Below, in pieces: positions 24,931-29,889 of a stretch of DNA of 64,000 bases. The stretch lies in contig JAICWE010000001.1 of assembly GCA_025934955.1 (NCBI GenBank), positions 1 through 64,000 on the forward strand, read 5' to 3'. The position numbers were made by a program, and so were the translations under genes. Under the pieces are notes generated by a model that did no database searches, was not told where the DNA came from, and saw nothing but the letters and a program-made list of their open reading frames with translations. Source of the stretch: Gemmatimonadales bacterium. GTDB lineage: Bacteria; Gemmatimonadota; Gemmatimonadetes; Gemmatimonadales; GWC2-71-9. Each line of letters begins with the position of its first letter. Within the stretch, counting starts at the first letter, position 1.

Positions 24931-26121
24931 ATGTCCGCCCGGCTCATGCACGTCGATCTTGACGCCTTCTTCGTCGAGGTGTGCCGCCAGCGCAATCCGG
25001 AGCTGCGCGACGTCGAGCTGCTCGTGGTCGGCGGGCGGCGCGAGGGACGCGGCGTGGTGCAGTCGGCGTCCTACGGTGCCCGGCGCTACGGCGTGCATGC
25101 GGGGATGCCGATCGGCGAGGCGGTGCGGCTCTGCCCCGCCGCCACCTTCTTCCGCGGCGAGTTCATCCACTATCGCGAGGCGTCGCGCGCGGTGCAGGCG
25201 GTGCTCGAGCGCCACGCGCCGGTCGTCGTCATGGCGTCGCTCGACGAGGCGTACCTCGACTTCGGCGGGACCGAGGGGCTCTGGCCGGTCTCGCTCCTTC
25301 CCGTCGCCGAGACGATCCGCGACGACGTGCAGCGCACCAGCGGGCTCGACTGCAGCATCGGGATCGGCCCCAACCGGATGATCGCGAAGCTCGCCTCCGA
25401 CGCGGCCAAGCCGCGCGGCCTGATGGAGGTGCGTGCCGGTTGGGAGGAAGGGTTTCTCGCGGGGCTGCCGCTCAAGGCGCTGCCCGGCGTCGGTCCGAAG
25501 ACCGCGGCGCGCTGGGCCGAGCTCGGCTTGAGCGACGTGCACCAGGTGCAGGCGATGAGCGTCGAGGCGCTCGCCCGGCTCATCGGCGACGACGACGCCC
25601 GCGCGCTCAAGCTCCGCGCGCACGGCCACGGCGGCACGACGCTGAGCCGCGATCGGCTGCCCCGCTCCGTCAGCCGGGAGACGACGCTCTCGCGCGACCT
25701 GCGCGACCCGGCCGAACTCGACCGCATCCTCGCGCTCCTCACCGCGCGCGTCGCCGGCCAGCTGCGCGACGAGGGACTCGTCGCCCGCACCGTCGCGCTC
25801 AAGCTTCGGCACGATGACTTCCACACCGTCACCCGCCGTCACACCCTGCCCGACGCCACCGACCTCGACGCCGAGCTGCTCAGCGCCGCCCGAGCGCTCT
25901 TCCGCAACGCGTTCGACGACGTGCGCCGGCGCGACCGCGGCGTGCGGCTCATCGGCATCGCCGCCACCAACCTCGGCCTGTCGGCCGAGCCCGATCTGTT
26001 CGAGCCGCCGGCGCGCACCAGGCTCCGCCGGCTCACGAGCGCGGTGGACGAGGTGCGCGCCAGGTTCGGCTTCGACGCGATGAAGCCGGCGCAGCTCGTC
26101 CGCCCGCGGAAGCCCGAGTGA
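24931..26121 (+). CDS. dinB: DNA polymerase IV (Y-family)
   Basis: 396 residues. The palm motif MHVDLDAFFVEV and the second catalytic motif SLDEAYLDFGG provide the three metal-binding carboxylates; GIGPNRMIAKLASDAAKP and a LPGVGPKTAARW helix-hairpin-helix thumb follow, and a little-finger domain ends at about residue 365. It performs error-prone bypass of damaged DNA. There is no clear LexA box upstream, and no recA or imuB neighbour. Its stop overlaps the GTG of the next gene. Confidence 0.93.
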   Translation: MSARLMHVDLDAFFVEVCRQRNPELRDVELLVVGGRREGRGVVQSASYGARRYGVHAGMPIGEAVRLCPAATFFRGEFIHYREASRAVQAVLERHAPVVVMASLDEAYLDFGGTEGLWPVSLLPVAETIRDDVQRTSGLDCSIGIGPNRMIAKLASDAAKPRGLMEVRAGWEEGFLAGLPLKALPGVGPKTAARWAELGLSDVHQVQAMSVEALARLIGDDDARALKLRAHGHGGTTLSRDRLPRSVSRETTLSRDLRDPAELDRILALLTARVAGQLRDEGLVARTVALKLRHDDFHTVTRRHTLPDATDLDAELLSAARALFRNAFDDVRRRDRGVRLIGIAATNLGLSAEPDLFEPPARTRLRRLTSAVDEVRARFGFDAMKPAQLVRPRKPE

Positions 26122-27176: not shown

Positions 27177-27845
27177 TCAGCGCAAGTCGGGCGGATTGAA
27201 CCGGAGGCGGATGGTTCCGTCGGGCGCGGTGACCTGCGGGCCGAGGCCGGGGAACATGGCGCGCCGACCCGCCGAGTCGCGCACCTCCACGGTGCTGTTG
27301 CGCCAGAGCCGCCAGTAACCCACCGGCACCCGCACCGCGCCGGCCGGGAGCACGCAGCAGTCGCGTGCGCCTTCCAGGCCGGCATTCACCCGCACCTTCA
27401 GCGCGACACCGGCGGCGTTGGTCAGGACCGGCGCGAAGTACACCGTATCGCCCACCACCGGCCGTGCCTGCTGCTGGATGCGCCCGTCAGGCTCGCGCAA
27501 CGTGAAAGCGCCGTGGAGCCGCTCACCGAGCGGCGCGCCGGTCGTCAGCGAGGGGGGAACGCTCGCCCATTCGCCGACGACGGTGGCGCCGCGGGAGAGG
27601 CTGACGGTGACGGTGGCGCCTGGCGGGACGGTGAGCGCCGCATCGCCGTTGACCGCGAGGCGCACCGGCTGGGTGAGCGAGTTGGTGAACACGAGTCGCG
27701 GCCGGCTCAACGCGAAGAATGCCGCGCCGGCGAGCGCAAGCAACAGGGCGAGCGCGATCCAGGGCGCGAGACTCGGGCCGCCACGGCGCGCGCTCACCAC
27801 CGGCCGCGGCGCGGCCGGGCCGGGCGCGGGTGCCGGCGCCGTCAC
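27177..27845 (-). CDS. Membrane-anchored paralogue of the upstream kinase ectodomain
   Basis: 222 residues. A Pro/Ala-rich cytoplasmic N-terminus, one membrane helix (about 27-47) and a periplasmic domain. That domain aligns with the C-terminal half of the neighbouring Ser/Thr kinase: LVFTNSLTQPVRLAVNG matches LVVTNGLVEPVRLAIGR, DTVYFAPVLTNAAG matches DQTYFAPLVRNGSS, and ARDCCVLPAGAVRVPVGYW matches PCDCAIAPGDSDGHLGYY. There is no kinase domain. It begins 7 bases after the kinase stop, so the two are co-expressed and may bind the same ligand or each other. Confidence 0.72.
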   Translation of the reverse strand: MTAPAPAPGPAAPRPVVSARRGGPSLAPWIALALLLALAGAAFFALSRPRLVFTNSLTQPVRLAVNGDAALTVPPGATVTVSLSRGATVVGEWASVPPSLTTGAPLGERLHGAFTLREPDGRIQQQARPVVGDTVYFAPVLTNAAGVALKVRVNAGLEGARDCCVLPAGAVRVPVGYWRLWRNSTVEVRDSAGRRAMFPGLGPQVTAPDGTIRLRFNPPDLR

Positions 27846-27852
27846 GTGGGGC

Positions 27853-29889
27853 TCAGGGCCGGTTGGGGAAGATGCCGCGCAGCGGGTCCCGCGGCGGCTC
27901 GGGCTGCTTGGGCGCCGGCTTGGCGGCCTTGTGCGCCGGCGCGTGCTGGACCGACTCGGCCGGCGCGGGTGCAGCCGCCTCGGCGTCGGCGCCCTGGTCC
28001 CGAACCATGCCGGTCTCGGCGCGCGGCGGCAGCGGGCTCGGGTGCAGGACGCGGACGCCTAACGTTTCGGTCGGGGCGGTCGCCCGCACCGGTGCGCGCC
28101 GGTCCGCCACGGTGAAGCTGGCGGCGGAGACGTCGAGCGGCACGACGCCGCTCCCCGCCGCGAGCCTGGTGCCGACATCATCGAACACGGCGGACAGCCC
28201 CGAGTCGTCGGTGACCCGAACGCTGGCGTCGGCGGCGAGCGGGTAGTAGCCGAGGTGGCCGTCGCTGTCGCCGGGCGCGATGGCGCAGTCGCAGGGCGGC
28301 ACACCTTGGCCCTCGATGACGAGCCGCACCAGGGATGAGCTGCCGTTCCGGACCAGCGGCGCGAAGTAGGTCTGATCGTTGGCCCACGGCTCGATGCTGC
28401 GGCGCAGCTCGCCGCGTGGCGCGGCGGCGTCGATGGCGCCGCCGAACAGCGCGCCGAGCTCGGTGCCGTCCGCCGAGCGCGGTCGCACCAGCATCCACTC
28501 CGCGTGCAGCGAGTCGGGCGAGCCGAGCGACACGTGCAGCGAGTCGCCCGGCCCGATCCGGTAGACCTGACGCCCGATGGCGAGCCGCACCGGCTCCACC
28601 AATCCATTGGTCACGACCAGCGATGCCTGCGGCCGGAGCGCCCAGGCAAAGCCGAACGCCGCGGCGGCGAGCGCAGCGGCCGCGCCGGCGATCGCGAGCC
28701 AGCGGCGGCCATGGCGCGACCGCGGGCGGGCGGGTGCCGCCGGCGCCGGCGTGATCTCGTCAGAGGCGAGCTTCGCGGTGGTCGCGTCGCTGCTGACGGT
28801 GGGCGTGAGCGTCGCGGCGTCGAGCAGGATGGGCGACGGCGTCACCGGTGTCACCGGGCCGGGATGCGGAGTCGCCGCGGCGGCGGCGGCGAGGACGGCG
28901 ATGGCGCCGGAGACGTTGCCGCCGCCCGGCTGCATCGGCCGCAGAGCTTCCAGCATCGCCGCCGCCGACGGGTAGCGCTCCGCCGGCTGCTTGGCCATGG
29001 CGCGCAGCACCACGGCGGTGAGCGCCGGCGGGATCCGCGCGTCGGCGATGCTCGGCACCGGCTCGGTCAGGTGCTTGCTCACGATTTCCTGGGAGCTGGC
29101 GCCGTCGAACGGCGGCGCACCAGTGAGCATCTGATAGAGCATCGCGCCCATGGCGTAGATGTCGGTACGCGCATCCACGTTGCGGTGGCCGAGCGCCTGC
29201 TCCGGACTCATGTAGAGCGGCGTGCCGACGACGAAGCCGTCCTGGGTGTGCGACGCCGCGCCGTCGAGTGACTTGGCGATGCCGAAGTCCACGATCATCG
29301 GCCGGCCGCTGCCGGCCTCGATCATGATGTTGTCGGGCTTGATGTCGCGATGCACCAGTCCGTGCCGGTGCGCGTGCTCCAGGGCATCGAGGATCGGCAG
29401 CGCGAGCGCCACCGCGCGCTCCGCGGGCAGCGGACCCTCGGCCCGCAGCAGGCGCGAGAGCGACGTCCCCTCGACGAAGGGCATGACGTAGAAGACCAGG
29501 CCCTCGCCTTCGCCGACAAAGTGGATCGGCACGGTGTGCGGATGGCTGAGCCGCGCGATCGCGCGGGCCTCCTGCTTGAATCGCGCGAGCATCCCGGCGG
29601 TCCACGCGACGTCGGGCCGCAGCACCTTCACCGCGAGCCGGCGCTGGAGCTCGGTGTCGCGCACCTCGTACACCTCGGCGAACCCGCCGCTCCCCAGCAG
29701 CCCCACGACCTCGTACTGCGCGCCGAGCGCGCGCACCAGCCGGCGCGGCACGTCGACGCCGCCGGAGCGGGCGCCGGTGAGCGGATCCTCACTGATGATG
29801 AACGTGAGGCTCTGCGGCCCGCACTTCGGACAGCGGGGGCTGTCCTCCGGGAGGGTGGACTGACAGTTCGAGCAGACCAGCAACGTCAC
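27853..29889 (-). CDS. Receptor-type serine/threonine protein kinase (PknB family)
   Basis: 678 residues. An N-terminal zinc ribbon (Cys6, Cys9, Cys20, Cys23) precedes the kinase domain: Gly-loop LLGSGGFAEVYEV, Lys88, catalytic HRDIKPDN with Asp182, DFG at 201-203 and an SPEQ activation segment. After a Pro/Thr linker comes one membrane helix (about 397-418) and a periplasmic domain of about 170 residues, then a low-complexity tail. It should sense an outside signal and phosphorylate cytoplasmic proteins. GTG 29889 has AGGAG upstream and begins the zinc ribbon directly. The next gene is a free copy of its ectodomain. Confidence 0.9.
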   Translation of the reverse strand: MTLLVCSNCQSTLPEDSPRCPKCGPQSLTFIISEDPLTGARSGGVDVPRRLVRALGAQYEVVGLLGSGGFAEVYEVRDTELQRRLAVKVLRPDVAWTAGMLARFKQEARAIARLSHPHTVPIHFVGEGEGLVFYVMPFVEGTSLSRLLRAEGPLPAERAVALALPILDALEHAHRHGLVHRDIKPDNIMIEAGSGRPMIVDFGIAKSLDGAASHTQDGFVVGTPLYMSPEQALGHRNVDARTDIYAMGAMLYQMLTGAPPFDGASSQEIVSKHLTEPVPSIADARIPPALTAVVLRAMAKQPAERYPSAAAMLEALRPMQPGGGNVSGAIAVLAAAAAATPHPGPVTPVTPSPILLDAATLTPTVSSDATTAKLASDEITPAPAAPARPRSRHGRRWLAIAGAAAALAAAAFGFAWALRPQASLVVTNGLVEPVRLAIGRQVYRIGPGDSLHVSLGSPDSLHAEWMLVRPRSADGTELGALFGGAIDAAAPRGELRRSIEPWANDQTYFAPLVRNGSSSLVRLVIEGQGVPPCDCAIAPGDSDGHLGYYPLAADASVRVTDDSGLSAVFDDVGTRLAAGSGVVPLDVSAASFTVADRRAPVRATAPTETLGVRVLHPSPLPPRAETGMVRDQGADAEAAAPAPAESVQHAPAHKAAKPAPKQPEPPRDPLRGIFPNRP

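Follow-up and report, generated by a model that had tools for sequence, protein, structure and literature searches.

A kinase-less ectodomain protein encoded next to a transmembrane Ser/Thr receptor kinase in Gemmatimonadota: a possible split receptor

Kinase-less receptor partners and the gene pair

Receptor partners devoid of a kinase domain are a central theme in plant and animal receptor biology. At the S locus of Brassica, SLG is a kinase-less homologue of the ectodomain of SRK; the two genes are closely linked, and SLG is inferred to have originated from a receptor kinase that was duplicated (PMC3616866). Plant RLPs combine a kinase-type ectodomain with a single helix and a short, kinase-free cytoplasmic tail; it has been suggested that they arose by losing the kinase domain and that they depend on a kinase partner (PMC9603095). 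No description of a kinase-less partner of a bacterial transmembrane Ser/Thr kinase was found in the literature searched, which was non-exhaustive and left subscription journals mostly outside.

The window analysed here, a stretch of 64,000 nucleotides from a Gemmatimonadales bacterium of a soil lineage, carries two adjoining genes on the minus strand; the draft genome amounts to 3.05 Mb at 88% completeness. The first (27853..29889, GTG start, stop included) encodes a receptor Ser/Thr kinase of 678 aa (Pfam Pkinase, 3e-44), referred to below as the paired kinase. The second, 7 bases downstream (27177..27845, GTG start, stop included), encodes a kinase-less protein of 222 aa, referred to as the solo. 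The conserved marker of the locus is a convergent dinB gene (24931..26121, plus strand; DNA polymerase IV-like), which lies outside the system and is separated from the solo by one extra gene in the window.

The paired kinase begins with a zinc-ribbon-like N-terminus (aa 6-24, 29818..29874), matched weakly and below cut-off by Pfam Zn_Ribbon_1 (E 0.003), with a Cys pattern also present in relatives. The kinase domain (aa 59-305, 28975..29715; Pfam Pkinase) is followed by a membrane helix placed at the hydropathy maximum (about aa 398-416, 28642..28698), an extracytoplasmic domain (28114..28617) that trees and motif counts point to as a diverged copy, and a proline/alanine-rich C-terminal tail of 86 aa (27856..28113) found in paired kinases, which ends with the motif DPLRGIFPNRP (27856-27888). 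Having intact catalytic motifs, one membrane helix, and an extracytoplasmic domain, this protein is a Hanks-type receptor Ser/Thr kinase. Its best NCBIfam similarity, via the kinase domain, is to the PknB/PrkC type, with which it shares a cytoplasmic Hanks-type kinase, a single helix, and an extracytoplasmic sensor domain. It differs from the PASTA kinases of that type by the absence of PASTA repeats in Pfam searches (the NCBIfam PASTA-kinase score is 316.8, against a curated cut-off of 450 bits), by an all-beta ectodomain without Pfam match, and by the addition of a kinase-less paralogue.

The solo consists of a cytoplasmic tail of 28 aa, one membrane helix (about aa 29-47, 27705..27761; hydropathy maximum), and an extracytoplasmic domain (27183..27692) that the trees and motif counts assign to the ancestral type. 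It has no kinase domain and no Pfam match, and is thus not itself a Hanks-type receptor kinase. Several solos of relatives have almost no cytoplasmic tail, so that the solo can act only via its helix and ectodomain; the cytoplasmic adaptor role proposed in an earlier note on this DNA is therefore unlikely.

Being homologous to a kinase ectodomain, lacking a kinase domain, and being linked to a kinase gene, the solo resembles a kinase-less receptor partner in these respects, and SLG/SRK and RLP/RLK are the closest analogues of the pair. The likeness to SLG/SRK concerns the layout and the inferred origin, but SRK and SLG carry a plant S domain and SLG is secreted, whereas the solo is bacterial, anchored in the membrane, and built on a domain unrelated to the S domain; moreover, in the bacterial pair it is the kinase-less copy that kept the conserved motifs. 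With RLPs, the solo shares the architecture of ectodomain, helix, and short tail. The domains and lineages are nevertheless unrelated, the cytoplasmic part is N-terminal in the bacterial proteins, and the partnership is putative here. Since no Pfam match to ectodomains of plant RLPs or SLG (LRR, S domain, and others) was obtained, the solo is an analogue and not a member of these families.

Relationship and predicted fold of the two ectodomains

The domain of the solo (aa 48-222) can be aligned to that of the kinase (from aa 419) over nearly its full length, with 31% identity over 164 aa in BLASTP (E 1e-22). The alignment score of 209 compares with a mean of 33 +/- 5.6 and a maximum of 65 in 2000 shuffles (z 31.7), and this score together with the E-value rules out chance similarity. 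Profile-profile comparison of the paired-kinase and solo ectodomain clades gave a probability of 100 (E 4e-43). These three approaches bear out the earlier observation that the gene after the receptor kinase encodes a membrane helix and a domain resembling the kinase ectodomain, and the motifs quoted at that time are all present and in register between the two ectodomains. The two are the sole copies of the domain found in the window genome. At 27354-27359, the otherwise conserved CxC is a CC in the window solo, which is one residue shorter there than the other aligned solos.

The AlphaFold2 model of the solo ectodomain, built from 63 sequences, is almost all beta with a pLDDT of 96.5, and the corresponding region of the kinase model reaches about 95. 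Both models have the same strand order, and the two ectodomains are thus predicted to share one fold; different folds had been named as the outcome that would speak against the relationship. Beyond the kinase ectodomain, a low-confidence linker is followed by a new rise of pLDDT at the terminal motif (82 and 72), which hints that this motif docks onto the kinase ectodomain.

By sequence, no relative of the ectodomain was found in Pfam, NCBIfam, or PDB. MiAMP1 was considered as an identity for the domain and dropped, its best E-value being 0.0023 with 4 of 63 members matched, too weak for use. Foldseek returned partial matches alone, with low TM-scores, to Ig-like proteins including the PepT2 extracellular domain, pilus chaperones, and the VAB of Vps13; among the Foldseek matches listed, the best query-normalised TM-score for the solo was 0.42. 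From the models and these matches, we infer that the ectodomain is probably a tandem Ig-like domain. An invariant Asn is present in each half of the ectodomain, and the repeats of Vps13 VAB each carry an invariant asparagine and bind short PxP motifs (PMC10053439). The likeness to VAB, which is among the Foldseek matches of both models, is a fold analogy alone: query-normalised TM-scores are 0.20-0.42, no sequence relation is detectable, and Vps13 is a eukaryotic intracellular protein. A two-module internal repeat received a probability of 33%, and a clear internal duplication was set aside on account of this weak support.

Distribution and history of the pair

The domain was found in 68 of the 102 Gemmatimonadota genomes of the family search. 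Most carriers have a single receptor kinase with no sequence beyond the domain, and pairs made of a kinase followed by a solo on the same strand occur in 12 genomes from five genera, at one locus beside dinB; the layout is unusual, as first suspected. The paired genomes are G000 (g1), G012, G043, G123, G124, G125, and G127 (g13), G013 (g14), G020 and G046 (g21), and G031 (g32), the twelfth pair being that of G126 (g13), where a contig edge leaves just the end of the kinase tail ahead of the solo. Seven of the 12 belong to g13 and are therefore not independent events. The convergent dinB follows the solo in paired and in solo-only loci, and the single kinases of G007, G032, and G052 are also near dinB.

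From kinase stop to solo start, the distance is at most 15 nt, or the genes overlap, at 8 of the 10 junctions read. It does not exceed 7 nt in the window, G124, G126, G013 (a TGATG overlap), and G031, is about 15 nt in G125, and is wider in G012 (>30 nt) and G123 (>100 nt). In g21, the last 8 nt of the kinase gene are shared with the solo frame (L090 8780-8900, plus strand; L072 8570-8690, minus strand), and this frame has no ATG, GTG, or TTG ahead of the membrane helix; judging from the frame, this solo is possibly started by an ATC or made by frameshift fusion.

Three elements separate the groups of ectodomains. The NAG-type element is present in all 16 solo-type proteins and 30 of 31 single kinases and in none of the 12 paired kinases, and the NSTV-type element in 16/16, 27/31, and 0/12, respectively. 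Conversely, the tail motif is found in all 12 paired kinases, but in none of the 31 single kinases and none of the 16 solo-type proteins. The motifs were picked after viewing the alignment and the proteins are relatives, so that these counts describe groups and are neither a blind test nor a tally of independent events. As aligned, they show the ectodomain of the paired kinase as the diverged one and the solo as the ancestral type.

In the trees, the ectodomains of the paired kinases form one clade (support 98/87; 92/76 with more rows), as do their kinase domains (support 99). Apart from that of G008, the solos group at 90/88, nested among the ectodomains of single kinases; the genera branch in the same way in the solo subtree as in that of the paired kinases. 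The best tree does not unite solos and paired kinases in one clade; forcing such a clade costs 15 log-likelihood units and is not rejected (p-AU 0.10), so that the node of the duplication is uncertain. A recent copying of the neighbouring kinase's ectodomain was discarded, the solo being closer to single kinases of other genera. The earlier reading of the solo is thus retained for a separate ectodomain membrane protein, plausibly a co-receptor, whereas the trees and motifs speak against a simple copy of the ectodomain of this kinase.

From its place in the trees and in the locus, the solo is best read as what remains of a second, complete receptor kinase, which arose by tandem duplication, lay downstream, and lost its kinase domain. 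In G008, a paired-type kinase is followed by a second kinase that runs off the contig, and another contig of this genome opens with the coding sequence of a helix and a solo-type ectodomain, followed by dinB. No exact overlap between these two contig ends was found. G008 appears, from this gene order, to hold two full kinases in tandem, the expected intermediate, with the contig gap inside. Alternatively, the solo could have been born by direct duplication of the segment encoding ectodomain and helix, its function then being any of those considered below. The two-kinase locus of G008 is broken by a contig gap, and no unbroken tandem of two full kinases was seen in the genomes searched, both of which leave room for this route. 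In G008, however, the gene order is precisely what a second full kinase in the position of the solo would give, and the solos fall among the single-kinase ectodomains, which makes a segmental origin distinctly improbable. The proposed order, with whole-gene duplication first and loss of the kinase domain second, is supported.

Over six genome pairs, dN/dS (NG86) was 0.12-0.32 for the solo and 0.10-0.43 for the paired-kinase ectodomain, the larger values being rough with dS near 1. By these ratios the solo is under purifying selection, and together with motif retention they rule out a pseudogene. The homology of the two ectodomains, their shared predicted fold, the single origin of the paired kinases, the inheritance of the pair at one locus, and the purifying selection on the solo are all well supported.

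In G003, G060, and G128, no kinase separates an intact solo from its upstream neighbour (porin, AmtB, or GlnA), and no further copy of the ectodomain was found in these genomes. Compared with the window kinase, their best-matching kinases have 47-49% identity, whereas true counterparts have 68-70%. These genomes are drafts (97, 93, and 85% complete, respectively), but the absence of the kinase is evident from gene order at the locus itself.

Away from this locus, the ectodomain occurs without a kinase in two further forms. In L103 (7149-8594) and L112-L116, the ectodomain ends predicted lipoproteins, mostly after repeats that by eye resemble Big_2 domains. In L111 (5715-6623), L117 (7783-8781), and L074 (7877-9217), from three genera, it follows a zinc ribbon and a helix without a kinase domain. 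Judging from these architectures, there may have been more than one origin of kinase-less forms.

A contig scan with the solo sequence alone gave no matches; with alignment A4 as query, matches were obtained, and the named relatives were nearly all Gemmatimonadales or Gemmatimonadota MAGs. A weak relative of the domain lies on a 3.6-kb contig filed as Bryobacteraceae (Acidobacteriota; L170 1016-1423), reflecting either real spread or misbinning. Plasmid spread of the pair was dismissed, as there was no plasmid match.

Possible roles of the solo and the paired kinase

The tight gene spacing, the pairing conserved across five genera, and the complementary retention of sensor motifs in the solo and of kinase and tail in its partner lead to the reading of the pair as a split receptor, in which the solo would sense and the kinase would signal. 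From sequence comparison, this reading has close to an even chance. On this view, the gene of a complete transmembrane Ser/Thr receptor kinase would have been duplicated in tandem, and the kinase domain of the downstream copy would then have been lost. The solo would have kept the ancestral ligand-facing surface and become the sensing subunit, with the kinase as catalytic output. The kinase ectodomain, released from sensing, could have turned into a partner-binding or self-regulating module, and the tail motif of the kinase might dock on an ectodomain, its own or that of the solo. Made from closely coupled genes, both proteins would sit side by side in the membrane, where ligand binding by the solo could alter the pairing and activity of the kinase. 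In a more specific version, which is unlikely, the kinase ectodomain would be a coupling module, and its tethered tail motif would stay bound to one of the pair's ectodomains until ligand binding by the ancestral-type, kinase-less sensing subunit displaces it.

The main rival is that the solo is a membrane-anchored binder of the ancestral ligand, an envelope component or a signal, with a role of its own, and that the kinase is a relic of the duplication rather than a partner. As such a binder would allow, the solo is retained in three genomes that lack the kinase, and the domain occurs free of a kinase in the predicted lipoproteins and zinc-ribbon-plus-helix proteins. Order, strand, and tight spacing are nevertheless kept across five genera, and solo and kinase ectodomain distances correlate (r 0.90) beyond the neighbouring dinB (partial r 0.66 once dinB is removed). 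This correlation fits an interaction of solo and kinase without being proof of it, as residual phylogeny could explain it. An independent binder is, on balance, somewhat doubtful. The solo-only genomes do indicate that the solo is not strictly dependent on this kinase; there, it could work with another of many kinases, or alone. Kinase-domain matches numbered 16-104 per genome in the seven genomes searched. In G012, the 104 matches (E <= 1e-20) in 4.6 Mb represent a strong Ser/Thr kinase expansion.

Finally, the solo could damp signalling, either by forming unproductive heterodimers with the kinase or by taking its ligand. Kinase-less receptor copies can act in this way, coupled genes would fix the ratio of solo to kinase, and overexpression of the PknB PASTA ectodomain disturbs mycobacterial growth (PMC4632501). 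On the other hand, the most conserved motifs have diverged between the two ectodomains, so that a shared ligand is doubtful, and the solo persists without the paired kinase; an inhibitor or decoy is accordingly quite unlikely. The same divergence, with the solo of ancestral type, weakens the initial proposal of a common ligand, and a decoy or co-receptor dedicated to this kinase, as proposed in the same note, cannot be the whole story when three genomes keep the solo without it.

If the split-receptor reading is true, the pair would be a natural case in which sensing and signalling were separated after duplication. Single-kinase, apparent tandem-kinase, paired, and solo-only states all exist in living relatives, which makes the steps testable. 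The pair also brings to light an ectodomain family absent from Pfam that is used by the receptor kinases and predicted lipoproteins of Gemmatimonadota.
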